52,307 nucleotides of DNA from a virus. Below, one piece after another: positions 22,205 to 48,861 of this stretch (its first letter is position 1; each line of letters opens with the position of its first letter). The stretch is from positions 1 through 52,307 of IMG/VR virus record IMGVR_UViG_3300009508_002179, one strand, 5' to 3'. A program made the translations under genes and the position numbers. The notes under the pieces were generated by a model, which saw only the letters and a list, made by a program, of their open reading frames with translations, was not told where the DNA came from and made no database searches.

Positions 22205-23737
22205 ATGAAGAAGAAATTGTATTGTTTCTTTACTCCGTCCCACGAGTCATTATTTAATGACTACTTAAAACCTAGTGCCGAAAAAGAATATGATATAAAT
22301 TATCTTTTTTACAAAAACCAAATTTGTGAATCTGGAGAATATAGTGAAAGCGGATGGAGGGAGACTCAATACAATAAAGTTTTATACTGGATAGATGCGG
22401 TGAAAAAAAACTACCAAGATGTAATTGTTTGCTGCGATGTGGATGTTCAGTTTTTGAAACCTAGCTTCGAGTTACTCGTTCAGGCCTTAGGCTCAGGCGA
22501 TATCGCTTTTCAATGCAATGATAGTTCTGGGAATATTTGTTCTGGATTTTTTATCTGCAAATGTAACGATAAGACCCTTTCATTCTTGAAGGAAACAGCC
22601 GCAATACTAAAAGGCAAGATGCGTCAAGATGGAGGGGGGGAGCAGTACGTAATGAGAGATATCCTTTTTAAAGATTCTTGCGATTTAAATTGGGCGGTCA
22701 TTCCGAGATCAATAGTTTGGTGCCCTTCTGAAAAATACAATGCACTTTCAGCTTTAAAAGTAAATAATAGCCTAGTTGCCCATCATGCAAACTGGACAAA
22801 TGGAGTTGATGAAAAAATAAAACAACTTGATTACATTAGAAATCGATTTAATCAAGGCTCATTGGCGGAAAAGCAATCCAGGATAGCTTTGTGCTCCTCA
22901 TCCCTTTTAAGGAACCTTGGTCAAACATATGAGAACTTAATAGAGAAAATAATAAAGCCGCTTCCAGAGGCCCCTGATTTTTTTGGGTTTTTTACCGACA
23001 AGTGCGAAACGGAAGAAAATAAGAGGTATTTAAATGAAATAAAAAAACATTGCAATTCAATGCATATTGAATTCAAGGAAGACATTATAGATGAGACACT
23101 TTGCGATCTTAGCGATGGCTTAAATAGATTCCAGAGACATGGATTAAGGGGCAATATACTTCAGTGGCAGTCTATGAAAAAGGTCAAGGAGTTAAAGTGC
23201 AATTTTGAGAATTTTCACGGAATGACTTACGAGTGCGTTATTTGGACTAGGCCAGATTTGTATTTTTTTAACTCCCTGGATAATATTTTAAATTTAAAAT
23301 TCCATGAAATATATAACTCAGCTCACGACAATCATCTTCACGGGATTTGCGACAGATTCTCATTAGGCTCTTCGGAGGCTATGGACTCAAGAATGACGAT
23401 AATTGACTCTTTTAGAGAATGGTTCTTCAACCACAAGAGAGAAGATACTTTTTTTTCAAAAAAAGAACAGAGGTTTATGTGGAACCCAGAGGTATTTTAT
23501 CGTGATTACCTGGAGATTTGCGAATTAAATCACGGGAAGTTGAATCTATGTTTCGGTAAATCAAGGGAGAACGGAGAGGTCAAGATTCCATTCTGGCATG
23601 AAATCTCTGGAAATTCAAACTCTGGACACTCTTGCTCTGAAGATATTATCAATCCTGAGGTTCTCAAAACCATTAAAGACAGTGAAGATCTAATCTTAGA
23701 TAAATATGGAAACTGGATGACAGTTAAAATGAAATGA
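22205..23737 (+). CDS. Large two-domain glycosyltransferase
   Basis: A 510-residue protein. The N-terminal half has a GT-A type nucleotide-sugar transferase pattern: VIVCCDVDVQFLKP (near residue 75, with a DxD-type motif), then DIAFQCNDSSGNICSGFFIC. The second half looks like a different glycosyltransferase-like domain (YECVIWTRPDLYFFNSLD near 345). Each half could add one sugar, as in bifunctional glycan synthases. No membrane segments, so it is soluble or peripheral. It overlaps the next gene by 4 bases. The exact family and the sugars are not known. Confidence 0.7.
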   Translation: MKKKLYCFFTPSHESLFNDYLKPSAEKEYDINYLFYKNQICESGEYSESGWRETQYNKVLYWIDAVKKNYQDVIVCCDVDVQFLKPSFELLVQALGSGDIAFQCNDSSGNICSGFFICKCNDKTLSFLKETAAILKGKMRQDGGGEQYVMRDILFKDSCDLNWAVIPRSIVWCPSEKYNALSALKVNNSLVAHHANWTNGVDEKIKQLDYIRNRFNQGSLAEKQSRIALCSSSLLRNLGQTYENLIEKIIKPLPEAPDFFGFFTDKCETEENKRYLNEIKKHCNSMHIEFKEDIIDETLCDLSDGLNRFQRHGLRGNILQWQSMKKVKELKCNFENFHGMTYECVIWTRPDLYFFNSLDNILNLKFHEIYNSAHDNHLHGICDRFSLGSSEAMDSRMTIIDSFREWFFNHKREDTFFSKKEQRFMWNPEVFYRDYLEICELNHGKLNLCFGKSRENGEVKIPFWHEISGNSNSGHSCSEDIINPEVLKTIKDSEDLILDKYGNWMTVKMK

Positions 23738-24579
23738 AGAAAACTCGGATTATAGCTGTCTACTTTGGAAGTTTTCCTTATTACTTCTCCCTCTTCAAGG
23801 AAAGTTGTTTTAAGAATAAAAACTTCGAGTGGTTGATATTTAATGATAGTGTGGGAGATAAGCGGGAAAAAAATATAAAATATGTAAGGACTTCCCTTAA
23901 GGAACTCAGCGAGCTCGCCTCGGAAGCCCTAAGCTGTAAGATCGACCTCAAGGAACCTTACAAGGTATGTGACTTAAGACCAATCTTTCCTATTGTTTTT
24001 TCCGATTACATTAAGGGTTACGAATTTTGGGGTCACTGCGATCTGGATGTAATTTGGGGAGATATGGGTAAGTTTTTGGATTACGAATTTCCCTGGGAAA
24101 ATGATATAATATCTGCCGATAGAAGAAGGGTTTGCGGTCCATTTTCATTATTTAAAATTTCAGACCAAATGAAATACCTATATAAAGATATCGATGATTA
24201 TATTGATATATTAAATTCAGAAGAATCTGGAATTATAGATGAGCTAGAATTTAACCAAGTTAACGAACCTAAAAGATGCACTCAGACAATAGATACGAAG
24301 AAATATAAAGTTTTTTGCGGCCACGATATTTCAGGCAAGTTTATATCACTACAAAGGTATAGCACGGACAGAGCTCCAGCTTACTGGAAGAGTGGGAAAT
24401 TATTCATTGAAAAATATTTTAAAAATCTAGTGGTCGATGGTAACAATTTTCATGGATTCGGGGCGGAAACAATGATGCTTCATGTAAGAAAATGGCATTA
24501 TGTGGATTGTAAAAAAAAGTCAATACATCACAAGGATGAAAGTGTTGATATTTACAAGCAATGGGCTAATACCCATTAA
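23734..24579 (+). CDS. Glycosyltransferase-like protein (DUF6625-like)
   Basis: A 281-residue protein. The start IIAVYFGSFPYYFSLFKESC, followed by FWGHCDLDVIWGDMGKFL near residue 100, matches a family of bacterial putative glycosyltransferases with a metal-binding DxD (here DLD). Later the HGFGAETMMLH segment has the histidines seen near the active site. It probably transfers a sugar from a nucleotide donor. It overlaps the upstream gene by 4 bases (ATGA), so the two are translated together. Family naming is from memory of the pattern. Confidence 0.65.
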   Translation: MKKTRIIAVYFGSFPYYFSLFKESCFKNKNFEWLIFNDSVGDKREKNIKYVRTSLKELSELASEALSCKIDLKEPYKVCDLRPIFPIVFSDYIKGYEFWGHCDLDVIWGDMGKFLDYEFPWENDIISADRRRVCGPFSLFKISDQMKYLYKDIDDYIDILNSEESGIIDELEFNQVNEPKRCTQTIDTKKYKVFCGHDISGKFISLQRYSTDRAPAYWKSGKLFIEKYFKNLVVDGNNFHGFGAETMMLHVRKWHYVDCKKKSIHHKDESVDIYKQWANTH

Positions 24580-24601
24580 GGTTTTAGTGTAATATATTTT
24601 T

Positions 24602-25498
24602 ATGCCTAATTTCAATTCGAGTCCGTATCTATCTACTTCCCTTGTTGATGTTAGGGAAAATCCAAGGCATTACTCCAAGAGCTTTTTGGAATTTGGGATA
24701 ATTGCCAATTTGGGCCGAGGAGGGTTCTGCAACCAAATAATACAAATCGTACATGCCGAAAGCATTTCTCAAATACTAAAGGAAGAGTTTTCTCGAAATG
24801 TTGATTATTACATAGGCAAATTCCCGAAACTGAAAAATAAAAATTTTAATAATGTTTTTTCTTACATAGATTCAGATAAAAGAATTGATTCAGGAGGCTC
24901 GTGCAACTTCTTCCTCCAAAGAGGTTGGGGCTTATTGGACGAGAAAGCGGCAAGTAGGGCTCACAGAGTTCTTCAAATAATGGGGGTAAAAATAAATAAA
25001 AAAGAATACATGAACAGGTATTCTGCAAATTTTAAAAAAATAAAATTTAAAAAAAATATACTAAAAGAAGCTGACGATTTTTCTTCGATAAATGATATCG
25101 ACTTCGAGTTAACTTTGGGAATTCATTTAAGAACTAACGATCACGATCCTAAAAAAGGTAAATTTTTTAAGCGTAATGACTTTGATAAATGCATTTCGAG
25201 CATAAACAAAACACTTAAGCTTAAAAATTTAAAATGCGTCTATATCTCAGGAACGGACAGGACGAATCGAAATTTCGACAATAAGGTGGGCCTACATAGC
25301 GAAGTTGTAAAATATTATAAAGATAAAAATATTAAAATTATTTCTGATAACGAAAGCTCCTACATAAGAGATTCGCCCGAATGGATAAGGGACTTAATAA
25401 TTTTATCAAAATGTAGATTTTCTACAGGACATCAGGCTTCTACTTTTAGTTTTCTTCCGTCCTTCCTTGGGGATTCTGAATTTATACCTATAAAATGA
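24602..25498 (+). CDS. Fucosyltransferase-like protein, GT-B type
   Basis: A 298-residue protein. Near residues 36-46 NLGRGGFCNQIIQI is the glycine-rich start of the fucosyltransferase fold. LGIHLRTNDHD near 177 has the HxRxxD pattern of bacterial and eukaryotic alpha-1,2/1,6 and protein O-fucosyltransferases. The C-terminus has a segment with GHQASTFSFLPSFLG, in the place of the donor-binding region. The donor is probably GDP-fucose. A second, shorter relative with the same core lies at 29532-30176. The gene begins after a small gap with GTGTAAT 13-15 bases upstream and overlaps the next gene by 4 bases. Confidence 0.65.
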   Translation: MPNFNSSPYLSTSLVDVRENPRHYSKSFLEFGIIANLGRGGFCNQIIQIVHAESISQILKEEFSRNVDYYIGKFPKLKNKNFNNVFSYIDSDKRIDSGGSCNFFLQRGWGLLDEKAASRAHRVLQIMGVKINKKEYMNRYSANFKKIKFKKNILKEADDFSSINDIDFELTLGIHLRTNDHDPKKGKFFKRNDFDKCISSINKTLKLKNLKCVYISGTDRTNRNFDNKVGLHSEVVKYYKDKNIKIISDNESSYIRDSPEWIRDLIILSKCRFSTGHQASTFSFLPSFLGDSEFIPIK

Positions 25499-26355
25499 AA
25501 CTGGGTTTATGCTTCTTAATTAGAGATTCAATTAATCTAGAAAAGGAATTGTGGGTGAATTTCTTAAAAAATGTTAACCGTGATTCTTTTGGAATCTATG
25601 TCCACCATAAGCATTTGGGAGAACATACAAATTTCGTGAGTGACCTGCCCAATGCAAAAGATTGTACCAATATAATTCCCACTGCTAGAGGGTACCCTAG
25701 TTTAGTCGATGCAACTAGAAATCTTTTTTTAGATGCGTTTAACGATGGCTGCGATTATGCATATCTTATATCAGGAGACATGATTCCTCTTTGTAGCTTT
25801 GGTCAGTTACAAGAAATATCAAAAGAAACCCTGTTCCAGTTCTTAGAGACAAAAGATATAAAAAGATATTGCAATCATTGTAAAAAATTACTGGCAGATG
25901 ACCATTTCGTAAGAAGAACTTTGTTTGTTTGGGAAAAAAGGTACGAAGAACACTACGAGAGGAATGCTAATTCTAGAATCAAAGAAATAGCCCCTTCTTT
26001 TCATGATTACAAAAAACAATTCATGTTTTTCGGAATGAATAAAGAGTCTTTTTTGAAAATAGAAAGTGATTATAATTTTCCAAAATATAAAAAATTAAAT
26101 GGTTGGCACTGGGGAATAGATGAATTTTACTGGATAAATATATGCAATTATTTAAATATTAAATATAAAAAAATTGATAACTTATTATTTTGCAACAGAG
26201 ATCCGATAGAAACTCAAGCCGAGCATATTGATTTTTGCAACTCATTTTCCAAAAACATCCGTAAGTTTTTCTTTGCTAGGAAGATAGCTTATATAGATAA
26301 AATTCAACAAGAAGAAATTATTAATATGTATAATAGTAAAAATATTAATTTATAA
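25495..26355 (+). CDS. Core-2/I-branching-type glycosyltransferase (GT14-like)
   Basis: A 286-residue protein. DYAYLISGDMIPLCSF near residues 87-102 is close to the conserved SGD motif of the GT14 branching beta-1,6-N-acetylglucosaminyltransferase family. Downstream NGWHWGIDEFYWINIC has the Trp-rich acceptor region with an acidic residue. The enzyme would add a branch sugar to a growing glycan. No signal or membrane segment. It overlaps the upstream gene by 4 bases and is followed by a small gap. Confidence 0.6.
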   Translation: MKLGLCFLIRDSINLEKELWVNFLKNVNRDSFGIYVHHKHLGEHTNFVSDLPNAKDCTNIIPTARGYPSLVDATRNLFLDAFNDGCDYAYLISGDMIPLCSFGQLQEISKETLFQFLETKDIKRYCNHCKKLLADDHFVRRTLFVWEKRYEEHYERNANSRIKEIAPSFHDYKKQFMFFGMNKESFLKIESDYNFPKYKKLNGWHWGIDEFYWINICNYLNIKYKKIDNLLFCNRDPIETQAEHIDFCNSFSKNIRKFFFARKIAYIDKIQQEEIINMYNSKNINL

Positions 26356-26373
26356 AGTGTATCTATATTATAT

Positions 26374-27240
26374 ATGCGAACTGTTTTTTGTTACTGGAAC
26401 AGAGGGGTCAATTGCATGCCCCCTCCAATTAGAATAATTTACGAAAGAAATTGTAGATTACTGAAATCATTTGGGTTGAAATTCAGACTTGTTTCTGATG
26501 AGAATGCTTCTGAGTTTGTAGGAATTCTTCCTGATTTTTTTGAAAATCTTTCGCCCAATCATAAGAGTGATTTTTTAAGGTGGGAAATTCTTTATAAGCA
26601 CGGAGGTGTTTGGCTGGATACCGATATTATTTTATACAAAGACATAACTCCTCTTTTTGAAAAACTTTATGATTTTGATTCTGTGGATGTTTTATTAAAT
26701 ATAGAATACAGATCAAAAATACATAATATATTGCAGGAAAACTGTGTGGAAGAATTGGTGGTATACGAAGATTTCTACATAAAGCCTGCTTGCTGTGTGG
26801 TTTTTGCGAAGCCAAAGTCAGATTTTATTAAATTCTGCAAAGAAAATACTTTAGAAAAAATAAGCTCCAGCCTTCACTTGGACTGGTGGGACATCGGACC
26901 GTGTATGATATCTAAAGCATATAGGAATAATAAATCTTTGGCATATATATTAAACAATTCAGAGATGGACGAGTTGGGCTTTAATGCTGTCACCTGGAAG
27001 GTGGACCTTAGCTTGCCTACTATTTTAAATAATTACCCTGGATATAATAAGTCTCAATGGTACGGCTCCCCACCAACAGTCGCCCAGAAAGCAAAAAGAA
27101 TGATCTTGAATGAAAATTTCTTTTATTTACCTATATGGTCTATACATAAAAGAAATAATGGAGACCAAAAGAATATTGAAAGTGTATTATTTCAAGAGGA
27201 GAGATCTCTTTTTTATCAACTTAACAAACTGTCTAAATAA
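26374..27240 (+). CDS. GT32-type glycosyltransferase (DXD sugar transferase)
   Basis: A 288-residue protein with the GT32 pattern: CYWNRGVNCMPPPIR at the start, KSDFLRWEILYKHGGVWLDTDIILYKDI near residues 63-90 (metal-binding DTD), and later WWDIGPCMI with an acceptor loop. Such enzymes transfer sugars in capsule and surface polysaccharide synthesis. A GTGTAT motif lies 17 bases before the ATG. The stop overlaps the next gene's start by one base (TAATG). Confidence 0.75.
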   Translation: MRTVFCYWNRGVNCMPPPIRIIYERNCRLLKSFGLKFRLVSDENASEFVGILPDFFENLSPNHKSDFLRWEILYKHGGVWLDTDIILYKDITPLFEKLYDFDSVDVLLNIEYRSKIHNILQENCVEELVVYEDFYIKPACCVVFAKPKSDFIKFCKENTLEKISSSLHLDWWDIGPCMISKAYRNNKSLAYILNNSEMDELGFNAVTWKVDLSLPTILNNYPGYNKSQWYGSPPTVAQKAKRMILNENFFYLPIWSIHKRNNGDQKNIESVLFQEERSLFYQLNKLSK

Positions 27241-29030
27241 TGAAATTAGGATTTTTAATATGGAAATTTCCAGCACAAGCCAACACTTTTATAGTTAATG
27301 AAATAAAAGAGTTTATTAAATCTGGAAGGCATGATTACCATATTTATTCTTTAGATAAACCAAGTTCTTATACATTTGATATATTTAAAGAAGATTTAGA
27401 TTTTATAGACCGTGATAAAATCACATATATAAAAAAGGAAGGGCTGATGATGGAAAAGATTATTCGCCTGTCAGAAGTTCCCTTTCACTCAAAACTAAAA
27501 GACTCAGATATCCATTCTGCTAAAGAGATTCATGACATTGAAGAAATCAAACATAAATCAATAGCCAATAAATTTGCATTCTCTAATTTAGCCAAAAGAA
27601 TACATGAGGATGGAGTAAAAGCTATTTACTCGCCTTTTGGTAATTATACTTCCGATATAGCTATGATGTTGAAAGTTCATTACGGAATACCTTATATGTT
27701 CTCTGTACATGCGTATGATTTATTCACCGAATTTAATTATCAGAAGCAAAAAGCTAAAACATGCCATAAAGCACTTCCTATATCAGAATATAATAAAAAA
27801 TATTTAAAAGATTTAGACTTCCCTTCTATAAAGACTACAGTTAAAAGGATAAATTTCAGAAGCGAGTCGAGCAGCATTGTTGAATATAAGTCGGAATATA
27901 AATATATTTTTTCCGCCAGCAGGCTTGACCCTATGAAAGGTTATGAATATTCTATAAAAGCTTTTTCTGAATTTTTGAAATCTAATCCTGACTACCGTTA
28001 TTACATAGCAGGAAGAGGCGATCAGGAATACGAATTGTTTTTAAAAAAAATTGTTAAGGATTTATCAATAGAGGATAAAGTTCATTTTTTAGGTTTCATA
28101 AGTAACGAGGAAGTTATTTCATATATAAAAGGAGCTCGATTTACAATTCTTTCCTCTGTTGAATTAAGTAATAGCGATAAAGAGGGTATACCCACATTTT
28201 TTATAGAAAGTTTGTCGAACGGAATTCCTGCCATTGGATCAAAATTATCAGGTATACCTGAGTTGCTAAACGATGATGTAGGGGGGTTATCCGAACAGGC
28301 TGATATTGATAGCATAGTGTATCAAATGGAAAGACTGGCTTCATTATTGAATAGGAAAATTGAAAAAAGAAAGATGAGAAGACAGTGCAGGATGAAGGTC
28401 TCTAGTATGTATGATAATCTTGCGAATATAAATATATTAAATGATACATTAGACTCATTGTCTGTAGAGGATTTTTTCTGTTATAATAATTTAGAGCTAG
28501 ACCCCTTTATTCCTATAGAAAATCCCGGTTTGGATAGTATCCTTTTAAATCAAAAACCTATTTCAAAAGATAAAACTTTTATCTATAATCCATACAATAT
28601 TAAGATTTGGAAAATTGATAATTTTCCATATAAAAATATACAAGATTGTAATATCAATAAATATAAAAAACTTATAAATGAGAAGTATTCATGGTTTAAT
28701 TATGAAGGAGGATGTGTTAAAGATTTAAAAACTTATTTTAATATTGTAAAAAATAGTAATAATATTATAATTAACAATGATCTTAGCTTTGTAATACTTA
28801 ATCATTTATTCCCCAATAGTAAATTTATATTATATGTACCTGAAAATCTGGAATGGGTAAGAGAGAAAATGATAAAGAATGGTTGGTGCCAGGGGGACTT
28901 AAAGGTTATAGATTCGACGGTTAAAGGCGGAGAAGCGGTTCTTGAATTAATGCAGAAATGCATGAAAAAAATAATAGACGAAGATTCTCTAGAAATAATA
29001 AAAATAAATGACAAAGAGCTCGAAAGATAA
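27240..29030 (+). CDS. GT4-family glycosyltransferase with C-terminal extension
   Basis: A 596-residue protein. Residues about 220-380 are a clear GT-B C-terminal domain of the GT4 type: IFSASRLDPMKGYEYSIKAF, HFLGFISNEEVISYIKGA, then EGIPTFFIESLSNGIPAIG with the E-x7-E donor-binding motif and a following LSGIPELL. The N-terminal half holds an acceptor domain. The last 170 residues are a separate, AT-rich, low-similarity domain that I cannot name. GT4 enzymes use nucleotide sugars (UDP or GDP). The extension and its Asn/Lys/Ile-rich composition set it apart from standard GT4 enzymes. It overlaps the nuclease gene by 23 bases. Confidence 0.75.
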   Translation: MKLGFLIWKFPAQANTFIVNEIKEFIKSGRHDYHIYSLDKPSSYTFDIFKEDLDFIDRDKITYIKKEGLMMEKIIRLSEVPFHSKLKDSDIHSAKEIHDIEEIKHKSIANKFAFSNLAKRIHEDGVKAIYSPFGNYTSDIAMMLKVHYGIPYMFSVHAYDLFTEFNYQKQKAKTCHKALPISEYNKKYLKDLDFPSIKTTVKRINFRSESSSIVEYKSEYKYIFSASRLDPMKGYEYSIKAFSEFLKSNPDYRYYIAGRGDQEYELFLKKIVKDLSIEDKVHFLGFISNEEVISYIKGARFTILSSVELSNSDKEGIPTFFIESLSNGIPAIGSKLSGIPELLNDDVGGLSEQADIDSIVYQMERLASLLNRKIEKRKMRRQCRMKVSSMYDNLANINILNDTLDSLSVEDFFCYNNLELDPFIPIENPGLDSILLNQKPISKDKTFIYNPYNIKIWKIDNFPYKNIQDCNINKYKKLINEKYSWFNYEGGCVKDLKTYFNIVKNSNNIIINNDLSFVILNHLFPNSKFILYVPENLEWVREKMIKNGWCQGDLKVIDSTVKGGEAVLELMQKCMKKIIDEDSLEIIKINDKELER

Positions 29031-29535
29031 AGGTAATGCTTGGGAGCTTGAATTAGCTAAAATATTAGAAGATAACTTTGAAGGAAAATTTAGTAGGACT
29101 CCTAGATCTGGCGCGATTTTTGGAGGGTCTAATGCAGAGAAAGCGGAAGGAGAAAGGGAAGATGTGGTTGAAATACTTTCTGGAGACTTAATAACCCCCA
29201 AAGACTTTCCCTTCTTGGTGGAAGCCAAACACTATGAAGATTTTAAGTTCTCGCAAGTAATAAATGGTCAAAACAAAGAGTTCGACGGATGGATAGATCA
29301 AGCTAGCACAGATGCGGAAAGATGCTCTAAACTTCCAATGATATTTTGTAAAATTAATTATATTGGAATATATTGTATATTTGAATATAAGATATTATCA
29401 TTAGATAGCGGTATTTGCCCTACTACATATTTCTCTAATCATTTAATATATAAAAGAAAATGGATAATGATATCTATGGAAACTTTTTTAAATTATAAAA
29501 ATATAATAGTTGATATGGCCAGACTTAAATCTTAA
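29008..29535 (+). CDS. Putative PD-(D/E)XK nuclease
   Basis: A 175-residue protein. The N-terminal KGNAWELELAKILEDNF helix, FSRTPRSGAIFGG, then ILSGDLITPKDFPFLVEAKHYEDF has the helix-strand-(G)D-x-E-x-K layout of restriction-type and Holliday-junction-type nucleases (Asp58, Glu70, Lys72 by estimate). It could take part in recombination, replication or superinfection defence. It overlaps the GT4 gene by 23 bases, and its stop overlaps the convergent minus-strand gene's stop by two bases. Confidence 0.6.
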   Translation: MTKSSKDKGNAWELELAKILEDNFEGKFSRTPRSGAIFGGSNAEKAEGEREDVVEILSGDLITPKDFPFLVEAKHYEDFKFSQVINGQNKEFDGWIDQASTDAERCSKLPMIFCKINYIGIYCIFEYKILSLDSGICPTTYFSNHLIYKRKWIMISMETFLNYKNIIVDMARLKS

Positions 29536-30176
29536 GCGTTATTCCTCATTTGCCTTATAAGCCCAGAAAAAGAAGACCAGCCTGTGCCTTTGAACCTTTT
29601 AGCCCCTATGCACAAATACAAGTCTATAACAGAATCTTCTAAAGATGTGTGTCTGAATCCAGATTTTTGTATAAATTTAATATATTTTATAAGAGGCGCG
29701 AATTTATCATAAAATATTTTCTGCGTTTCTAAATTATCTGTAGCTATATATAATGGCCTATCTTTATTATTATCTATAAAATTAAAAAACAATTCGTCTG
29801 GTTGATATATATTTCTCTGCTTTCTTATTAATACATGATCTGTTCTTCTTATATGAACTGCATTGTAATCTAGCGATAGTTTGCCCTGAACCTCTTTAAC
29901 TTTTTGCATAATTTCTTTCTTAACCTTTAGATCTTTATATAAAAACATTTTGTTAGCGTCGAAATTATGCCTACATATACCGTAAGTAGGGCTAGATGTC
30001 GTATTATTAAAGAAAACTCCTTCTGGGGGCTCGAATAACTCCAGAAAGTGACCAGGGCAATCTTCGTCTGGGGTCCAATTAACAAAAAGCTCTTCTTTTT
30101 TCTGTTTACAATATTCCAGATGAGAAAAAAGGCTTCTTAGTCTGTTAGACAAACCTAAGTTTACGGTAATCTGCAT
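29532..30176 (-). CDS. Short fucosyltransferase-like protein
   Basis: A 214-residue protein. It starts MQITVNLGLSNRLRSLFS, with a glycine/Asn-rich donor loop, and has NAVHIRRTDHVLI near residues 104-116, matching HxRxxD fucosyltransferases. Near the end GAKRFKGTGWSSFSGLI matches the second donor loop. It is shorter than the 24602 protein, consisting only of the core. It probably uses GDP-fucose or a related donor. It runs convergently into the nuclease gene with no space for a terminator. Confidence 0.6.
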   Translation of the reverse strand: MQITVNLGLSNRLRSLFSHLEYCKQKKEELFVNWTPDEDCPGHFLELFEPPEGVFFNNTTSSPTYGICRHNFDANKMFLYKDLKVKKEIMQKVKEVQGKLSLDYNAVHIRRTDHVLIRKQRNIYQPDELFFNFIDNNKDRPLYIATDNLETQKIFYDKFAPLIKYIKFIQKSGFRHTSLEDSVIDLYLCIGAKRFKGTGWSSFSGLIRQMRNNA

Positions 30177-30178: not shown

Positions 30179-30757
30179 TTAAAAATCATAAGGGAATAAA
30201 TTTAAGTCTTGTTCAAATCTTTTTTCTATAATTTTTATTGTTTCTGAATTGTAATACTCTTTATAATTCCCTCTATTTGAAGAATTTATTTTTTTAATAG
30301 GTTGGCTGTATTCTATATTGTTCTTTTCACATATATATTTCATATCTTCATTTATAGTTTCTAATCTTCCTACGTAATTCAAAGATATATTTTCCTTATT
30401 TAATAAAAAGCCTAATATCGATAAGGGGTCTTGAGTTGACCACTTTTCACCATCAACCGTTTTATTCTCCCAGTGATTAGGCAGCCCTTTTCTTACCCAG
30501 TGATCAAAACCCTGTTTGTTTTTAGGTTCGTATGGGTCGCCATGATGATGAAAATACCAAGAAACCATCCTGTCCCAAGGATTTCTTATAAAGGTGAACT
30601 TAAAGAACTTCTCTAGTTCGTCATAAGACAGGTCTGACGAATACTTTCTTAGTGTCTCGTGCCTAAGTCCATTCCACCCAAAAAACCTCTCTATAGAGAC
30701 TCCAGCGCATTTAGGAATATGTATAAAAATTAAGTTGGGATCTTTTTTTATCACCAC
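30179..30757 (-). CDS. Sulfotransferase, P-loop type (Sulfotransfer_2-like) 1
   Basis: A 192-residue protein with a GTG start (two adjacent GTGs at 30757 and 30754). The 5'-phosphosulfate loop is FIHIPKCAGVSIERFFGW (residues 11-28). The 3'-phosphate-binding region is FTFIRNPWDRMVSWYF (54-69). These residues bind PAPS; the enzyme would move sulfate to a hydroxyl on a glycan. The C-terminus FEQDLNLFPYDF is related to, but diverged from, the common 3' module of the other sulfotransferases. Confidence 0.85.
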   Translation of the reverse strand: MVIKKDPNLIFIHIPKCAGVSIERFFGWNGLRHETLRKYSSDLSYDELEKFFKFTFIRNPWDRMVSWYFHHHGDPYEPKNKQGFDHWVRKGLPNHWENKTVDGEKWSTQDPLSILGFLLNKENISLNYVGRLETINEDMKYICEKNNIEYSQPIKKINSSNRGNYKEYYNSETIKIIEKRFEQDLNLFPYDF

Positions 30758-32714: not shown

Positions 32715-32735
32715 CATAAGTATATACACTCTTAA

Positions 32736-39298: not shown

Positions 39299-39952
39299 TT
39301 ACTTAATTGAAAATAATTCTGAATGCTTTTCGTTCATAAAACTTAAAACCAACTCTTCGTCATATATATTAAAAACTCGATCAACCTCTTTGAGGCATTC
39401 GATATATTTTTCTTCAAATTCCTTAATGATTTCAACGGGTAGCCTTAGCGCCCCTGCTTTTAATTTTATTTTGGGAAACTTAGCTTCCAATAACCCTCCA
39501 TATGGATTTCCTGGTATTGAATGATATTTCTTTATTACCATTTTTTTTTCTAGTCCACCGTTTAGAATTTCTCCGAAACCTCTATTAAAAACACAATCTC
39601 TCCACACTATATCTTTAACTAAAGAAAGATCACTAACCCTTTTGAAAAGAAGAATCTTGCTTGTCCATATAGTAGCTAGTTTAAGATACGAAGAACTCTT
39701 TATACGCAACCCGTATTTAGTATATACATAATCCATAGATTCGCAGTATTTTGTTAAATTTTTTAAATAAGGTTTGCTTGGCAAATCTTTAAAATTTAAT
39801 TTAATATTATTACTAAAATCTATTTTTTCTTCTGAGAAAAAATTATCTATATTCAACTTCTTTGCGCCTCGAAGGTGCCTGCCATTAGTTGGCTTGACGT
39901 TACCTTCTACCTTCCAGTATCCAGAGAACGTGGCTCTATTTAATATACTCAT
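39299..39952 (-). CDS. Putative glycan-processing protein, family unknown
   Basis: A 217-residue soluble protein. Around residues 92-120 it has ATIWTSKILLFKRVSD followed by DIVWRDCVFNRGFG, a pattern reminiscent of some glycosyltransferase acceptor domains (W-x-SK then VWRD). No clear metal-binding motif. It overlaps the GT92-like gene by 17 bases and lies next to sulfotransferases. A transferase in the same pathway is a plausible guess, not shown. The N-terminus has a basic LRGAKK segment. Confidence 0.4.
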   Translation of the reverse strand: MSILNRATFSGYWKVEGNVKPTNGRHLRGAKKLNIDNFFSEEKIDFSNNIKLNFKDLPSKPYLKNLTKYCESMDYVYTKYGLRIKSSSYLKLATIWTSKILLFKRVSDLSLVKDIVWRDCVFNRGFGEILNGGLEKKMVIKKYHSIPGNPYGGLLEAKFPKIKLKAGALRLPVEIIKEFEEKYIECLKEVDRVFNIYDEELVLSFMNEKHSELFSIK

Positions 39953-40760: not shown

Positions 40761-41236
40761 TAATCTTCCTCCTGATTTACGGAAAGGGAAAATTGTTCTT
40801 CCTCTTCCTTAGATACTTTTTTCTTACTTTCAACTTTATGTATTCTCTTTCTAAGCCCAGTACTTGAAAAGTCGTGGTCTCTTGAATTATAATATATTTC
40901 TATGCTCTTTTTCAAACATATATCTTTTCCAGAAAAATCTACATCTTTGTAATCAGATCCTATAATTCTAATGTTCACGTCGTAACACAATAAAATATCA
41001 TGCAAATCTTTTTCTAAATTATATGGTATAATTTCGTCTACATATTTAACAGCAGAAAGCTGTATATAGCGCTCAACAATACTTTGAACTGGAGCATTTT
41101 TTTGAGGTCTTTCCACTTGCGGGTCAACATGCAGACCGCATACTAAATAGTCGCATTTACTTTTAGCTTCTTTTAGCATTGAAATGTGCCCAGAATGCAA
41201 AAGGTCAAAGGTTGAAAATGTTATTCCTGTTTTCAT
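40760..41236 (-). CDS. Glycerol-3-phosphate cytidylyltransferase-like (TagD-type)
   Basis: A 158-residue protein. ITFSTFDLLHSGHISML (residues 5-21) has the HxGH nucleotide-binding signature of cytidylyltransferases, with IRIIGSDYKD (near 91) and the late SSTGLRKRI (near 124) also fitting the family. The enzyme would make a CDP-linked donor such as CDP-glycerol or CDP-sugar for teichoic-type or glycan assembly. A charged C-terminal tail (about 25 residues) is extra. It shares its start-stop base with the GT92-like gene. Confidence 0.75.
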   Translation of the reverse strand: MKTGITFSTFDLLHSGHISMLKEAKSKCDYLVCGLHVDPQVERPQKNAPVQSIVERYIQLSAVKYVDEIIPYNLEKDLHDILLCYDVNIRIIGSDYKDVDFSGKDICLKKSIEIYYNSRDHDFSSTGLRKRIHKVESKKKVSKEEEEQFSLSVNQEED

Positions 41237-41473: not shown

Positions 41474-41851
41474 TTAATACCCCATGTCTTCGTAATCATC
41501 CCAGTAAACAGAGCCCAATCCACAATCTCTTAACAAATTAACTCCAATGGCTCTATCTCCCCTTTTGCCTGGATCCATATCGTTAATTAAAACTCTAGGT
41601 CCTCTTTCGATTTCCATGATTAATCTGCTATAAGGAAGGTCGTACATAGACAATTCTTTCTCGGTGTGCTCTCTTAAATACTCAGGCCTTGCTGTTGTCA
41701 GTATTACCATATGACCGTTACTTGACCAGCAGTCTAATTTTTCTTTTACTCCGTCCAGAAGTTCTGGTGTTGAAGTCTCATAAGTTTCGAACTTTCTATA
41801 TTTAAATAAAGTTCCATCTATATCGCAAAATATTGTATTTTTCTTTTCCAT
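41474..41851 (-). CDS. HAD-superfamily phosphatase
   Basis: A 125-residue protein with IFCDIDGTLFKYR (residues 7-19; DxDGT motif I), VILTTARPEYLRE (near 49; motif II), and late INDMDPGKRGDRAIG (motif IV-like, near 90). HAD phosphatases remove phosphate from sugars and nucleotides. Beside a cytidylyltransferase and glycosyltransferases it may act on a sugar phosphate. The size is small, like a minimal core HAD. It has a 2-base gap to the next gene. Confidence 0.75.
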   Translation of the reverse strand: MEKKNTIFCDIDGTLFKYRKFETYETSTPELLDGVKEKLDCWSSNGHMVILTTARPEYLREHTEKELSMYDLPYSRLIMEIERGPRVLINDMDPGKRGDRAIGVNLLRDCGLGSVYWDDYEDMGY

Positions 41852-41900: not shown

Positions 41901-43109
41901 TCATTTTAATTTCATCTGTTCTTGAAATCTGGAATCCCAGTCTATTTCTTCTGGCGAGCTAAAATCTAAGAGAGAAAATACATAAAGTGCTAAAGCTGAA
42001 ACAACGAAAACCCCTAAAACTACCCATGCTACATTTTTCCTTAGCCAACTCTCTGGCTTTTCTGGTTTAGGCTCTTCTGGTTTAGGCTCTTCTGGCAAGG
42101 GTTCTTCTGGTGTGGGCTCTTCGGGCTCAGGGTCTGGATAGGGATGTGGTATATCGGGCTCAGGTTTTTTTTCTTCTGGAAATTCTTCTTTCAGGAGTTT
42201 CTCTATATCTACAACTCCATGACCCCAGTTTTTATCTTTCCCCTTTTCCCCTTTGTCCGATGTATATCTTAACAAATGACCTCTTATTTCTTCTACTGTC
42301 TTGCAATCATTAAGGCCTGTTTCTTTTTCTTTTTGTTTGTGCTTTGAAAGCATTAAAGCTATGATTCCAACTAAATACGGGCAAGCCATTGAAGTTCCGC
42401 TTAAAGATGCATATGCATTGTTTAAGAAGGTACTGAATATTCTATGTCCAGGAGCGGCCCAATCAACCTCTTTACCTCTAGATGAAAAATCTGCAATTTC
42501 CCCGTTCTTATCAAAAGCCGCCACCGATATTGTTTCTGGGTACGCAGCTGGATAACTAACTCCAGCGTGTCCAGAATTACCAGCCGAACAAACTATGGGT
42601 ATGTTTTTCTCATAAGCTTTTATGACTGCTTCCTCTATATCTTTACTGGGCCTACTTGCCCCCAAAGACATCGAAATTATGTCTGGCTTAAAATCTATAG
42701 CCATTAATATGGCTTTAGCTACATTAGAGGAGCTACCAGAGCCGTTTCTATTAAGTGCTTTTATACAAATGCACCTCGACTCTGGAGCTACCCCAACATA
42801 TCCCTGATTATTGTCTTTTGCGCAAATAATGCCCACGCAATGAGTTTGGTGCCCGTTTAAATCTTCAATACCTTCTCCTGACACGAGATTGACTCCAGCA
42901 ATCGCGTTATCTCCGATATCGTTATGATTGGGCTTACCTGTATCAATTACAACTATACTTATTCCCTTGCCTTTCGATATTTTCCAAGATTCTGGAATAT
43001 TGCAATATTTCATCCCCCAGTCTAAAGACTGAGAGAGGGTCGCTGTCATTTCGTTAACTTGATAATTTGGTATTGATACTTCTTCTTTTTCGCTTTTTTG
43101 TTTTGGCAT
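41901..43109 (-). CDS. Membrane-anchored subtilisin-like serine protease
   Basis: A 402-residue protein of the S8 family. The catalytic residues are visible in order: Asp in SIVVIDTGKPN (near residue 57), His in GHQTHCVGI (near 86), Ser in LSGTSMACPYLVG (near 238), with an Asn-bearing CSAGNSGHAG (near 175). The last 100 residues are a Pro/Glu-rich repeat (PEEPKPEEPKPE near 330-350) and then one hydrophobic helix (WVVLGVFVVSALALYVFSLL, near 362-381). No signal peptide is obvious at the N-terminus, so the catalytic domain may stay in the cytoplasm or be exported by another route. A role in virion maturation, host protein cleavage or exclusion is possible. Confidence 0.8.
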   Translation of the reverse strand: MPKQKSEKEEVSIPNYQVNEMTATLSQSLDWGMKYCNIPESWKISKGKGISIVVIDTGKPNHNDIGDNAIAGVNLVSGEGIEDLNGHQTHCVGIICAKDNNQGYVGVAPESRCICIKALNRNGSGSSSNVAKAILMAIDFKPDIISMSLGASRPSKDIEEAVIKAYEKNIPIVCSAGNSGHAGVSYPAAYPETISVAAFDKNGEIADFSSRGKEVDWAAPGHRIFSTFLNNAYASLSGTSMACPYLVGIIALMLSKHKQKEKETGLNDCKTVEEIRGHLLRYTSDKGEKGKDKNWGHGVVDIEKLLKEEFPEEKKPEPDIPHPYPDPEPEEPTPEEPLPEEPKPEEPKPEKPESWLRKNVAWVVLGVFVVSALALYVFSLLDFSSPEEIDWDSRFQEQMKLK

Positions 43110-43129: not shown

Positions 43130-43957
43130 TTACTCAGGCCTCTTCCCTAAAGGTTTTCCATCCTGACCTATTTCGCCCGCTCGTATTTTAGTAGCTGATA
43201 CAGCTTGCAATTCCTTACTTAGCTCAAGTTGTTCGATATTATATCCAACTCCTCTGCCATAAAAAACGTCCATTATGTTTGGAACTTCTATGATTTTCAC
43301 TTTATCTCCGAAATCAACGCATGCAGCCATAATTTCAGCCTTGACTTTCTCAAAGCTGTAAGGGTTGCTGTCGTCCATTCCTCCTACATCTCTAAGAGCT
43401 ATGCAGCACTGACCAGTTCTTTTAATTGCTTCTGCAACTAAAGTTTTATGGCCAACATGAAAAGGTTGATATCTGCCTATTAGTAATGCGGTTGGAGCTT
43501 GGTTGTCCCATTTTTCCGTGGCATAAATATTCTCTAATGCAGTTTCGCACCATTCTTGAGGAGTGCCTTCGTTTAATATCAAATCCCTATCGTCCCACCT
43601 TTCATCTTTGGTCGGATCCTCAAAAATAGCATTCGTATCAGCATATCTACCTTCTTCGATTCTATTGACCCAAATTACATAATCGGGATTAAAAAGCTTT
43701 CTAGCATCTTCCGTGGGGCAACAAAAATCAGATACAACATATCCACCTCCTAGTGCGGACCAATCAGCCAGCTTGCCCATTCTCCTGGAATGCTCGTTTC
43801 TATCTTCTTCGGTAAACCCTAAGTCTTTATGAATTTCCTGTCTAACAGCATCAGCGTTAAACCAGACAGCGTTCAATTTAGGAACTAATAGTTCTGCCAG
43901 AGTAGTTTTACCAGACCCTGGAAGCCCCATTATTAATATTTTCCTTTTAGTTTTCAT
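43130..43957 (-). CDS. APS kinase-like domain fused to nucleotidyltransferase
   Basis: A 275-residue two-domain protein. Residues 1-125 resemble APS kinase (CysC): MGLPGSGKTTLAELL (P-loop, near 10-24), FNADAVRQ (near 33), then DLGFTEEDRNEHSRRMG (45-61), the diagnostic Asp-Leu-Gly-Phe..Glu-Asp-Arg motif. Residues 155-275 are a nucleotidyltransferase: ALLIGRYQPFHVGHKTL (HxGH motif, near 157-173) and VSATKIRAG (near 263). CysC makes PAPS, the sulfate donor for sulfotransferases. The second half may make a sugar nucleotide, NAD-like product or APS; its substrate is not evident. It is the first gene of the minus island. Confidence 0.65.
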   Translation of the reverse strand: MKTKRKILIMGLPGSGKTTLAELLVPKLNAVWFNADAVRQEIHKDLGFTEEDRNEHSRRMGKLADWSALGGGYVVSDFCCPTEDARKLFNPDYVIWVNRIEEGRYADTNAIFEDPTKDERWDDRDLILNEGTPQEWCETALENIYATEKWDNQAPTALLIGRYQPFHVGHKTLVAEAIKRTGQCCIALRDVGGMDDSNPYSFEKVKAEIMAACVDFGDKVKIIEVPNIMDVFYGRGVGYNIEQLELSKELQAVSATKIRAGEIGQDGKPLGKRPE

Positions 43958-45225: not shown

Positions 45226-45795
45226 ATGATATCTCATTCTCATAAATTTATATTTATTCATATAAATCGCACGGGAGGAACTAGTGTCGAGCATGCCTTA
45301 TCCGCATTTGGGGGAGTTAATAAATGGGAGGATTTTAATAGGCATGATGGAGCGGGAAAAATTTCAGAAAAACCTGAGTGGAATGATTATTTTAAATTTT
45401 CTATAGTTCGCAATCCGTGGGATAAAGAATTTTCAGACTATAAATGGCACAAAAAATTAAAACACAAAAAAGTCTCAGAATATTCAACATTTAAAGATTA
45501 TCTTCTGCTCCCCGAACAAACAAAGGGCAAGGGTTTATTTAGGTGGCATTCTAATCAATATGACTGGCTTATTTCTAAAAACGGAAAATTAGAAGTTGAT
45601 TTTGTGGCTAGATTCGAAAATTTACAAGAAGATTTTTATAAAATTTGCCAAAATATAAATATAGATCCAATAAGTTTACCTCATAAAAATAAAACTAAAA
45701 AGTTAGATTATAGACAGTTCTATACAGATGAAACTTATAGTTGGGTAAAAGCAAACTACAAAAAAGACATCGATCACTTCAATTATAAATTTTAG
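45226..45795 (+). CDS. Sulfotransferase, P-loop type 8 (plus-strand copy)
   Basis: A 189-residue protein. FIFIHINRTGGTSVEHAL (near residues 8-25) and KFSIVRNPWDKEFSDYKW (near 62-79) are the PAPS-binding elements; Asn-Arg replaces Pro-Lys in the loop. The C-terminal part LQEDFYKICQNINIDP and FYTDETYSWVKANY is related to the shared module but diverged. The stop TAG ends at 45795, and its last G is the first base of tRNA-Arg. It lies apart from the others but in the same direction as the tRNAs. Confidence 0.82.
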   Translation: MISHSHKFIFIHINRTGGTSVEHALSAFGGVNKWEDFNRHDGAGKISEKPEWNDYFKFSIVRNPWDKEFSDYKWHKKLKHKKVSEYSTFKDYLLLPEQTKGKGLFRWHSNQYDWLISKNGKLEVDFVARFENLQEDFYKICQNINIDPISLPHKNKTKKLDYRQFYTDETYSWVKANYKKDIDHFNYKF

Positions 45796-45871: not shown

Positions 45872-45877
45872 TATATC

Positions 45878-47920
45878 ATGAAAAGAAAAAGTAAATTACA
45901 AACAAATAAACCAAAAGGGTTCTTTAAGTTTCGAGACCCTCATCCTAATCTTGAGGGTTATGAGTTCAGCTCTTATACAAATAACCCCCCTTACTTTACT
46001 GAAAATTGGGTGAAGACCAGTTCTCTTCCTTGTAAAAAGAAAGTTAATTTACAAACTGGTAGCGAGCGAGGTTTTTATAAGTATAGGGACCCTCACCCAA
46101 AAATCGAAGGCAGATTGTTTTATGGCTATCAACCTAAGAAAAATAAAAAAGGCACATATGGTGAAATTTGGCAACCCAAGGATAAATTTGGTAAAGTACA
46201 AATAGTTTCTCAAACTGGCCTACCTATAGGCACTTTTAGTCGTGGCGATCCGCACCCTTCGATGGATGGCCTTTTCTTTTTTAATTACGACAAGCGCAAA
46301 CATTTACCCAGAGGTAAAGGGCGCGAAACATGGAGGCCTTATCCCCCCAAAAGACCTTTCCCAAAGAAATACCCTAAATGGACGAAAGAAACGGTATTAG
46401 AGCATTACTCACAATTATGTAAGGAAAATGGAGATGTTGCGTTTTCACTCTCGAACCATAAATATTTAAATAAACCATTGAGAGAGTTTTTTGGAAGCAA
46501 GGAAAATCTAGATAAAGAGCTCGGATATAAACCCTTAGTGGTTAATTGGACAAAGGAAAGCTTTGCAAAAGCCTATCTTGATAAATGTAAAGAAAATGGA
46601 GATAAACCATGGAAAATTCCAAGGGGGCATGCGTGGAAAGGTATGGTTCGAAAACACTTTGGAAGTATACACGACTTAGAAAAACATGTCGGTTATGAAC
46701 CAACTCAATTACGCTTAAGCAGGGAAGAGTGGATAGAGGAATATAGTAAAGTCTGCAAGGCTAATGGAGATCAAGCCCTTGGAAACTTAATGCTAAAATC
46801 TCTGGGCAGAGGTGAAATTTTAGGTGCATTCTCTAGATTTAATATCAGCAAAACGAAAGTAGATAAAGATTTAGGTTATAAGAATTTCCATACCTATCGA
46901 ACGCCCGAAGAGACTTTTGAGGAATATAAAAATCTTTGCTTGAAGCATGGTGACAAGTCGTTAACAGTCACAGAAATGGAAATCTTAGGAAAATCAGATC
47001 TAAAAGGTGCGATCACGAGGCATTTTGGCAAAAAAACAAAATTAGACATAGAACTTGGATATTGCCCATGTAATCTCTATAAACTATCTGATGGCTCTAT
47101 TGTTAGCAGTGTTCTTGAAGTTATATTTGGAAATTTTTGTTTACATAATAATGTACCTTTTAAAACAAATGAAATAATTGACGAAAAAGCGAGTCGAAAA
47201 TTTGAATATGACTTTTTAGTTCAGGATACCCATGGACAAGATTGTTATGTAGAGATATGGGGCTATGATCTAAAGAGGGACAACCCTCCTTCTGTTCAGC
47301 AAGCTTATCGAGAAAAAAGGTTAATTAAAACTGAATTTTATAAAGAAAGAGGATTGAAACTAATTGACATAGATCCTGATATATTTCACGCAGTAAATTC
47401 AAAAAGAATACAGAATTCTCTTAAAGAGATGTTTATAAACCATTCTATAAAAATAAATAATTTTAAAAAAATAGAGTCGGAAGATTTGATTAAATCAAAA
47501 AATAACAAGGTGTGGGATAAAAATAAAGTTAAAGAAAAATATCATTCAATTTGCTTGAAAAATGGTGATAAATCAGTAAGCACGATTAAACTTAACGAGA
47601 TGGGGGAAAAAGGTTTGGTTACTGCTATATTTCTCCACTTTGGAAAAAAGGGGAAAACCAAGCTAGATGCAGAATTAGGTTATGAAAATATTCTTACATA
47701 CTGGACAAAAGAATCTTCTGCAAAAGAATTTTTAAAACTTTGCCACTTAAACGGCAATAAGCCTGTGTCAAAAAGAAAGCTGGAAAAAATGGGCAAAGGT
47801 GCATTATCTGGTGCAATTGATAAGCATTGGAGGTACAGGGGTGATTTGTATGCCTATTTAGGATACACTCGTGACTGCCTTAGGCTTCGCTCAAGAAAAA
47901 AATATAATAGAAAAAATTAA
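45878..47920 (+). CDS. Repeat-rich homing-type endonuclease
   Basis: I placed the start at ATG 45878, 6 bases past the tRNA-Arg. About 680 residues. The first 150 hold three repeats of FR/YRDPHPxxEGxxF with a downstream ENW/EIW/ETW. The middle has four repeats of about 55 residues (for example WTKESFAKAYLDKCKENGD ending in LGYKP). A nuclease-like core near 410-500 shows FEYDFLVQDTHGQDCYVEIWGYD and YKERGLKLIDIDPDIF, similar to EDxHD/Vsr-type nucleases. Two more 55-residue repeats follow. The repeats would bind DNA and the core cuts. Such enzymes spread themselves; the neighbouring tRNA is a plausible target. Confidence 0.6.
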   Translation: MKRKSKLQTNKPKGFFKFRDPHPNLEGYEFSSYTNNPPYFTENWVKTSSLPCKKKVNLQTGSERGFYKYRDPHPKIEGRLFYGYQPKKNKKGTYGEIWQPKDKFGKVQIVSQTGLPIGTFSRGDPHPSMDGLFFFNYDKRKHLPRGKGRETWRPYPPKRPFPKKYPKWTKETVLEHYSQLCKENGDVAFSLSNHKYLNKPLREFFGSKENLDKELGYKPLVVNWTKESFAKAYLDKCKENGDKPWKIPRGHAWKGMVRKHFGSIHDLEKHVGYEPTQLRLSREEWIEEYSKVCKANGDQALGNLMLKSLGRGEILGAFSRFNISKTKVDKDLGYKNFHTYRTPEETFEEYKNLCLKHGDKSLTVTEMEILGKSDLKGAITRHFGKKTKLDIELGYCPCNLYKLSDGSIVSSVLEVIFGNFCLHNNVPFKTNEIIDEKASRKFEYDFLVQDTHGQDCYVEIWGYDLKRDNPPSVQQAYREKRLIKTEFYKERGLKLIDIDPDIFHAVNSKRIQNSLKEMFINHSIKINNFKKIESEDLIKSKNNKVWDKNKVKEKYHSICLKNGDKSVSTIKLNEMGEKGLVTAIFLHFGKKGKTKLDAELGYENILTYWTKESSAKEFLKLCHLNGNKPVSKRKLEKMGKGALSGAIDKHWRYRGDLYAYLGYTRDCLRLRSRKKYNRKN

Positions 47921-48861
47921 TCAATATAATTCTCTTTAAAATAATCGGCATGGTATAATTTTCGTACTTTATTCCAATCTACATTTTTAAAATTTTCTTC
48001 GTATTTTTTTTCTAATAAATCCTGGGTTACATCTTGCCATTTATCCACAATTAAGAATGGCAAGCCATAGGAAGATAAATCATGATATACTGGATGATTA
48101 GTTACCACGGGAATAATTCCCATTAAATGTGATTCTTGCAGTTTTGGAGTTTGTATCCCCGCTCCTAAAGGGCACAGAAAATATTTATAGTTAGATATTG
48201 TATTGTAATATTCTGTTGGTTTACAGTTTATTAAATCAACCACGTTTTGTTTTTTTAAAAAATTTAATAAATCGCGCCTATCTTTTATAGATTTACTTAA
48301 TTTTGGCCATTTACTGCCAAAGCCACTTACTGCTAATTTTTCTTTTGGGTTGTTTGGTTCATTTATATGTTTCAGTGTATTTTGCGCTCCATTTCTTATT
48401 AAATATGCATGTATGCATCCCATTGGTAAAGCTTTAACATAACTACAATTTATATCCTTAGCTTCGTAATATATTTCCTCAAAATTTTCTTTTAGTTTTT
48501 CGATCCATTTAATTTTTCCTGTTAAATTGAAATCGTCCCCAAAAACAAAAAGTTTTTTATATTTTTTTGTGATTTTTTCTAGCAATAGCTCTAGACAATC
48601 AGGATTACATAAAACATTTCCTTTTAAATTTTTATTAAATTTAATTCCTGTTTTGTCAATTATTATTTCAAATAAATTGTAGAATTGCGGGCGAGTTTCT
48701 AAAAGCTGGGATTTTTCTGATACGGCGCCTTCGGCTGTTATAAAATCTTGCCCCCATGCACTAGATTTTTTGTATTTTTTGGGATTGTACCTGTATCCAA
48801 TTACATCATGGATCTTATCGAACTGAATGTAATTTTTTAATATTTCTTTTTCTTCTTCCAT
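47917..48861 (-). CDS. Exostosin-like glycosyltransferase
   Basis: I chose the ATG at 48861 (the open frame also extends upstream to 48918 with little support). About 314 residues. Near 225-290 it reads YFLCPLGAGIQTPKLQESHLM and GIIPVVTNHPVYHDL, the E-containing donor region of GT47/exostosin-like and related GT-B enzymes, with FLIVDKWQDVTQDLL after it. It would transfer a sugar to a growing glycan. It overlaps the upstream gene by 25 bases and its stop overlaps the endonuclease gene's stop by four bases (convergent). Confidence 0.6.
   Translation of the reverse strand: MEEEKEILKNYIQFDKIHDVIGYRYNPKKYKKSSAWGQDFITAEGAVSEKSQLLETRPQFYNLFEIIIDKTGIKFNKNLKGNVLCNPDCLELLLEKITKKYKKLFVFGDDFNLTGKIKWIEKLKENFEEIYYEAKDINCSYVKALPMGCIHAYLIRNGAQNTLKHINEPNNPKEKLAVSGFGSKWPKLSKSIKDRRDLLNFLKKQNVVDLINCKPTEYYNTISNYKYFLCPLGAGIQTPKLQESHLMGIIPVVTNHPVYHDLSSYGLPFLIVDKWQDVTQDLLEKKYEENFKNVDWNKVRKLYHADYFKENYID

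Follow-up and report, generated by a model that had tools for sequence, protein, structure and literature searches.

A sulfotransferase and glycosyltransferase island in an uncultured marine phage, with a candidate compact enzyme for sulfate activation

The window analyzed here is an entire linear virus record from IMG/VR (IMGVR_UViG_3300009508_002179; 52,307 bases), hence a fragment, and its source is a large uncultured marine tailed phage. It carries an island in which genes for sulfotransferases and glycosyltransferases lie together with a gene for a fused kinase-nucleotidylyltransferase, named KINFUS here, which may make the sulfate donor 3′-phosphoadenosine 5′-phosphosulfate (PAPS). The island is real and unusual. 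Its genes form two tight operons, one per strand. The plus-strand operon (22205-29030, +, or up to 29535 in a wider delimitation) encodes glycosyltransferases, with a gene for a PDDEXK nuclease coming next, and the minus-strand operon (43957-29532, −), in which most intergenic gaps are shorter than 20 bp, starts with the KINFUS gene. Promoter matches showed no clear excess over shuffled sequences. An initial annotation, made from the letters of the window, had described a coherent pathway for building and sulfating a glycan, with PAPS provided by a protein containing a domain like the kinase of adenosine 5′-phosphosulfate (APS).

Sulfotransferases, KINFUS, and glycosyltransferases

Nine intact open reading frames (ORFs) of the window encode sulfotransferases. 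Eight match Sulfotransfer_2 (PF03567) at 42 to 79 bits, against a cut-off of 22 bits, and the ninth is Stf0-like. Since the E values of the PF03567 matches range from 1e-10 to 6e-22 and none of 14 control genomes gave a match, these assignments are not due to chance. On the minus strand are ST1 (30179..30757; 71.3 bits; motifs IPKCAG..S and RNPWDRMVS), ST2 (32103..32729; 42 bits; motif IPGCAG), ST3 (33398..34036; 69.2 bits; motifs EKTGSVS and RNPWDRIVS), ST4 (34917..35552; 79.4 bits), ST5 (36601..37227; 62.4 bits), ST6 (38100..38720; 68.9 bits), and ST7 (38724..39296; 62.6 bits), and on the plus strand is ST8 (45226..45795; 49.4 bits; motif INRTGG). The Stf0-like protein (37234..38094, −) is marginal by PF09037 (22.6 bits against a cut-off of 22) and had no match among cultured phages. 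A remnant (34795..34914, −), found by conceptual translation of a gap, corresponds to the N terminus of a PRSGST-type sulfotransferase. It reads MNSTILLSTPRSGSTFLDNKL... and then meets a stop, in a frame different from those of the nearby ORFs of 106, 75, and 76 amino acids (near 32.7-35.1 kb), which have no Pfam match. The nine intact sulfotransferases and one remnant counted in the initial annotation are thus all present.

Judged from their sequences, the Sulfotransfer_2 proteins largely keep the motifs for PAPS binding. The Arg...Ser of the 3′-phosphate site (3′-PSB; RNPxxxxxS) is found in all eight, and the lysine of the 5′-phosphosulfate-binding site (5′-PSB) in six (ST1, ST3, ST4, ST5, ST6, and ST7). 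In ST2 this lysine is replaced by Gly, so that the protein is possibly inactive, and in ST8 by Arg. In an alignment of 45 relatives, R74, N75, and S82 are invariant and K14 is at least 90% conserved. The structure model of ST6 (pLDDT 88) has the predicted fold of a PAPS sulfotransferase. It matched SULT and heparan 6-O-sulfotransferase structures with a probability of up to 1.00 and a query-normalized TM-score (TMq) of up to 0.56, and several of the matching structures were solved with PAP. ST3 to ST7 have in common a C-terminal tail of 52 residues with 47 to 87% identity, compared with 34 to 49% in the rest of the protein, which suggests that they diversified by recombination around a common tail. 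Across the pooled set, 99 sequence entries have tails with the motif H(Y/C)TEYY, a number to which some proteins contribute more than once.

KINFUS (43130..43957, −) is a protein of 275 amino acids, identified by Pfam, profile, fold, and context as an APS-kinase-like domain (residues about 1-120) followed by a NadM-like HxGH nucleotidylyltransferase (residues about 150-262). The initial annotation had recognized the first domain and missed the second. The Pfam match of the kinase half to APS kinase covers only the first 90 residues or so (profile positions 5-90 of 152). When a profile of 66 KINFUS relatives was compared with the PDB, APS kinases were matched at 4.9e-16, whereas kinases of other kinds were at 5e-8 or weaker and small metabolite kinases at 3e-5 or weaker. 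Among the structures matched by the KINFUS model, 49 of the top 50 were APS kinases, PAPS synthetases, or ATP sulfurylases with an APS-kinase-type domain, and human PAPSS1 ranked first (target-normalized TM-score, TMt, up to 0.77). A Walker A motif is present. In APS kinases, an Arg, a Phe, and a second Arg contact the substrate APS; R39, F48, and R53 of KINFUS align with these residues (1d6j, 2yvu) and are invariant across the 66 relatives. The fold that the model gives for the kinase half is that of an APS kinase. The second half carries the motifs GRYQPFHVGH and SATKIR, and its HxGH (H167xGH170) and SATxxR (SAT..R259) are nearly or fully invariant in the same set.

About eleven glycosyltransferases had been reported for the island, and six of these exceed a Pfam glycosyltransferase cut-off: a Nucleotid_trans protein (22205..23737, +; PF03407, with DUF7796; 41.8 bits against 22), a homologue of which occupies the same place in the relative G016; a Core-2/I-branching-type enzyme (25495..26355, +; PF02485, 35.8 against 23.4 bits); a DXD enzyme of the Caps_synth/Gly_transf_sug type (26374..27240, +; PF05704 42.2 and PF04488 38.4 bits, both over cut-off); a GT4-type enzyme with a C-terminal extension (27240..29030, +; PF00534, 96.7 bits); a GT90 enzyme (35537..36604, −; PF05686, 66.3 against 24 bits); and a GT92/GT2-like enzyme (39936..40760, −; PF01697, 60.6 against 23 bits). 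The other five or so are weaker candidates. A DUF6625 protein (23734..24579, +; Pfam E 1e-48) is placed here by its context, and a protein with a sub-threshold GT61 match (24602..25498, +; E 0.011), an O-fucosyltransferase-like protein (29532..30176, −; PF10250, E 3.6e-5, below cut-off), and an exostosin/GT47-like protein (47917..48918, −; PF03016, 18.4 bits against a cut-off of 33.4) show weak family matches. A 442-amino-acid protein (30773..32101, −) without a Pfam match was considered GT2-like by eye, and it has a distant homologue in the relative G018.

The fusion and its neighbors in SAR11 bacteria and phages

In a genome scan, both halves of KINFUS were found in SAR11 bacteria, mostly as adjacent genes. 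SAR11 are the most abundant bacteria of the ocean. Among 22 SAR11 genomes selected for the kinase, CysD was found in none (10 of 14 control genomes were positive in the same search) and ATP sulfurylase in 2, so that both were absent in 20, and 16 of the 22 carry PF13469 sulfotransferases. Over 148 genomes of the SAR11 family, strong sulfotransferases were present in 26 of 60 genomes with the kinase and in 7 of 88 without it (odds ratio 8.8, Fisher p 6e-7, a statistic that ignores phylogeny and genome size). A CysNC-like frame occurs in seven of the 148 genomes, none of which has the kinase (p 0.04). In one genome (G122), the kinase gene is placed 8 bp before a sulfotransferase gene.

Some SAR11 genomes have the second half only. 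In 8 of 10 such loci examined, its gene stands directly before genes for a membrane protein, AprB, and AprA; AprA (E 1e-299) and AprB (E 7e-56) were verified in the loci L377 and L388, and the others were assigned by gene order and length. The same aprBA-adjacent place is taken by the fused form in L388 and by the split pair in L310. Genomes with the second half only had been considered as evidence against a role in sulfate activation, on the ground that a PAPS maker needs the kinase, and this objection is answered by the aprBA neighborhood. The short NadM-like protein of SAR11 may be the ATP sulfurylase that most of the examined genomes otherwise seemed to lack. The gene order in L377-L384, L388, and L310 was seen as the short NadM-like nucleotidylyltransferase, a QmoC-like membrane protein, AprB, and AprA. 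In L305-L311, the pair of kinase and nucleotidylyltransferase lies near a DmdA-like aminomethyltransferase, a MetF-like protein, and a Rieske protein, with a methanethiol-oxidase-like protein in some; judging from these likenesses, the surroundings are a sulfur-metabolism neighborhood.

In distant phages, the commonest direct neighbor of the fusion is a DUF2061 gene (29 loci by clustering, with 26 copies at +1). DUF2061 accounts for 13 of 122 ORFs adjoining the fusion, whereas the families listed for a control set of 125 distant ORFs do not include it. In Mesorhizobium, a DUF2061 gene lies between the sulfotransferase and cysD-cysNC in the operon for Nod-factor sulfation, and on plasmids of Gemmatirosa and Microvirga it lies amid cysD/cysN genes, while in Bradyrhizobium it was not found with sulfate-activation genes. 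The loci in which DUF2061 was seen embedded in sulfate-activation operons are L293, L295, and L296. Our guess from these positions is that DUF2061 has some role in the handling of sulfate or PAPS.

The island occupies a variable site between a conserved head block (PhoH-TerL-portal-capsid) and the early-gene side. In this minus-strand block, tape measure, terminase, and PhoH were matched in PHROGs, and the portal, capsid, and other head labels were assigned from position and conservation only. In IMG/VR, at least 583 relatives of the large terminase subunit (TerL) were found, but among cultured phages there were only remote matches (no more than about 25% identity over about 60%), and the putative capsid protein had no match among cultured phages. 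Related records are as long as 163-222 kb, so a complete genome of about that size is probable. The seven nearest relatives (TerL identity 76-79%) have 2 to 8 sulfotransferases each, beside or inside the head block, and the sulfotransferase set and gene content differ in each of them. A search with TerL alone gave 27 records. PF03567 is present in 9 of them, and the other 18 are more distant and mostly 38-60 kb long. Glycosyltransferase and nucleotide-sugar families accompany the sulfotransferases in relatives, and the families of their islands include GT61, GT11, Fringe, Glyco_transf_7, Glyco_transf_25, FkbM, and WcbI. In the relative G017 (163 kb), a one-strand array of 60 kb (L182-L185, 83-143 kb) includes several members of the GDP-mannose-dehydratase and epimerase families, DegT, and NeuB. 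The array also contains the fusion gene, as well as genes for ribonucleotide reductase and DNA polymerase III.

A proposed sulfation module and its alternatives

We propose, from sequence and structure models, that the island is a module for building and sulfating a glycan, headed by a compact bifunctional PAPS synthetase, and put the probability of this at about 0.55. The minus-strand operon would open with this enzyme, KINFUS. The nucleotidylyltransferase half would take the role of ATP sulfurylase by converting sulfate and ATP to APS, which the kinase half would then phosphorylate to PAPS. The eight Sulfotransfer_2 proteins and the Stf0-like enzyme would then move sulfate from PAPS to acceptors, most likely the sugars added by six or more glycosyltransferases of the island, and the product would be a surface glycan, on the virion or the host envelope. 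Because the fusion holds a nucleotidylyltransferase half in addition to the kinase, a complete route from sulfate to PAPS is plausible, and the pathway of the initial annotation, partly supported by the PAPS-binding motifs, the folds, and the common operon, gains strength from this. A wider proposal is that the 275-amino-acid fusion and the two-gene form of SAR11 are a new sulfate-activation enzyme, in which the NadM-like half replaces ATP sulfurylase and the shortened APS kinase completes PAPS. Such an enzyme would supply phage sulfotransferase islands and fill the step beside APS reductase in SAR11. We advance this tentatively, at a little short of even odds.

Several observations weigh against the proposed PAPS synthesis and glycan assembly. 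The kinase half falls short of a full-length APS kinase (CysC, PF01583/TIGR00455; 43.8 bits against the TIGR00455 cut-off of 138.7), is missing the C-terminal half and lid that these enzymes normally have, and has His or Gln in nearly all relatives at the position of an APS-kinase Asn. By sequence, the closest relatives of the second half are NadM-type nicotinamide mononucleotide (NMN) adenylyltransferases, not ATP sulfurylases, and ATP sulfurylase (PF01747) and CysD/CysN were not among its Pfam or NCBIfam matches. Because the kinase half fails the full-length test and the second half fails the ATP-sulfurylase family test, we suggest that KINFUS works like a PAPS synthetase and do not claim membership in that family. 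No flippase, polymerase, or priming transferase was recognized among the Pfam matches of the island, and the SAR11 association carries the limits of phylogeny and genome size given with it above. Finally, the initial annotation had expected the kinase to occur together with sulfotransferases. This holds for 17 of the first 19 records with the fusion, 15 of the 19 having been selected for the kinase, but in a second set, nearly all distant relatives, only 5 of 50 pass the PF03567 cut-off. In the complete genome of Stenotrophomonas phage Bhz60, the fusion is present without any PF03567 protein, and several sulfotransferase-rich records longer than 100 kb are without the fusion. Strict co-occurrence thus fails, and as a simple test of function this pattern, good near the window and poor far from it, was rejected as not decisive.

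The acceptor and the place of the product are a separate question. The transferases could remodel the host surface (O-chain or capsule) against superinfection and not the virion, which is compatible with the PAPS part of our proposal and which we consider a serious possibility, though somewhat below an even chance. The same interpretation has been given for the variable regions of pelagimyophages, which are rich in glycosyltransferases and were read as modifying the O-chain of the host surface (PMC7029224). GT90, GT92, Caps_synth, Branch, WcbI, Glyco_transf_25, and FkbM, together with NeuB and GDP-mannose dehydratase in G017, fit the chemistry of surface polysaccharides. However, the lack of a matched flippase, polymerase, or priming transferase also speaks against host-surface remodeling, and in the seven nearest relatives the islands adjoin the head block or lie within it, which fits decoration of the virion equally well. 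Glycans on capsid and tail made by phage-encoded glycosyltransferases have been reported for mycobacteriophages (Freeman 2023, cited in PMC12619734). That system involves other gene families and hosts, and the citing text does not mention sulfation.

As for the source of PAPS, KINFUS could instead be an enzyme of nicotinamide adenine dinucleotide (NAD) salvage, combining nicotinamide riboside kinase with NMN adenylyltransferase, while the host supplies the PAPS for the sulfotransferases. The likeness of the second half to NadM and NadR-type enzymes (GR(F/Y)QP(F/W)HxGH and SxTxxR motifs) favors this, as does the locus of Bhz60 (L157), where the fusion gene is between NADAR and DNA methyltransferase genes, and the presence of the fusion in many phages in which PF03567 was not detected. 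The Bhz60 locus also has a cysteine dioxygenase gene nearby. NAD salvage was the leading alternative until the aprBA context in SAR11 appeared. However, both the profile and the fold place the kinase half closest to APS kinase. The second half is short and far below the curated cut-offs for NMN adenylyltransferases (TIGR01527, 21.3 against 181.2 bits; PRK01153, 23.3 against 127 bits), and by eye the stretch of NadM between the ENPF/P-x-I region and ISATxxR is missing from it. The bacterial neighbors are the APS reductase genes aprBA, the kinase is associated with sulfotransferases in SAR11, and DUF2061 is the neighbor in phages. We prefer replacement of ATP sulfurylase to NAD salvage because a kinase-independent enzyme beside APS reductase would be expected to interconvert APS with sulfate and ATP; NAD salvage is accordingly considered unlikely.

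It is improbable that the sulfotransferase array is mostly decaying cargo of a recombination hotspot with few active enzymes. The related tails of ST3-ST7 on diverged bodies, the remnant, the loss of the lysine in ST2, and the different gene content of every relative could be read in that way, but the eight frames are full length, retain their 3′-PSB residues, and are only a few bases apart, and many records have comparable intact sets. The weakest alternative is hypermodification of phage DNA bases, which we regard as very improbable: phage glycosyltransferases can act on DNA (Pyle et al. 2024, cited in PMC12619734) and PMC10829341 asserts that phages have systems of glycosyl- and sulfotransferases that act on nucleotides, but the Pfam matches of the island include no DNA-modification gene, the varied GT-A/GT-B families are of protein or polysaccharide type with nonulosonate and deoxy-sugar genes in a relative, and no Tet/JBP dioxygenase was found in 31 records, a weak point as that search had no working control. 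On the basis of their families, the transferases would fit surface glycans, with DNA the less likely acceptor.

The proposed sulfation module has partial counterparts in known systems. The T4-like marine phages (pelagimyophages and cyanomyophages) likewise carry an extensive variable region close to their structural genes that encodes numerous glycosyltransferases and an rfaE-type nucleotidylyltransferase, so that in this respect the set noted in the initial annotation is not without precedent. However, the pelagimyophage paper (PMC7029224) contains no word beginning with "sulf", whereas the island described here combines nine sulfotransferases with a proposed PAPS synthetase, and the phage lineage is different, as judged from capsid and TerL. 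Phages of OM43 have a single sulfotransferase, and the function of phage sulfotransferases has been called unclear (PMC10580990). The OM43 phages and the Stenotrophomonas phage DLP_6 have one PAPS sulfotransferase gene each, in contrast to an array in an operon with the proposed synthetase; DLP_6 also carries the fusion, 90 kb from its sulfotransferase gene. PAPSS1/2 and CysNC resemble KINFUS in joining an APS-kinase domain with a nucleotidylyltransferase or ATP-sulfurylase domain in one polypeptide, but they have about 600 residues, compared with 275, and in KINFUS the second half is NadM-like, not ATP sulfurylase or CysN, and the lid is shortened. The rhizobial nodH-nodPQ genes likewise encode a sulfotransferase with its own sulfate-activation enzymes, with a DUF2061 gene in Mesorhizobium, but they are bacterial and comprise canonical CysD/CysNC and a single sulfotransferase. 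No paper on phage PAPS synthesis was found in a search made before the SAR11 result, in literature mostly outside subscription journals. Islands for glycan modification in phages are known, and the new part is possibly the sulfation array together with a sulfate-activating enzyme. Should the phage indeed produce PAPS and attach sulfate to glycans, it would represent a phage-encoded means of assembling sulfated glycans in which the phage itself supplies the donor. The relevance to SAR11 lies in genomes that have APS reductase and sulfotransferases without either known ATP sulfurylase (20 of 22 examined).

Other genes of the island

The remaining genes of the minus-strand operon include two others noted in the initial annotation along with the APS-kinase-like fusion, and both are present. 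One encodes a TagD/HldE-C-like nucleotidylyltransferase (40760..41236, −; PF01467, 48.6 bits; phrog_7878; below cut-off for TIGR01518 and TIGR02199), and the other a small HAD-family protein (41474..41851, −) with a weak match (Hydrolase_3, 23.1 bits against a cut-off of 20.9). An alpha/beta-hydrolase-like, XcbB/CpsF-like protein (34040..34768, −) has sub-threshold matches, and a 217-amino-acid protein inside the operon (39299..39952, −) matched no family. A subtilase of the S8 family (41901..43109, −; PF00082, 156.9 bits; phrog_3677) is encoded within the sulfotransferase operon, while in relatives its gene adjoins PhoH instead. By eye, it has a linker rich in Pro and Glu and a C-terminal membrane segment. 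Beyond ST8, a protein of 684 amino acids (45866-47920) contains repeated units of about 55 residues, its center being endonuclease-like by eye, and the start of its gene overlaps a tRNA-Arg gene (45795-45871).

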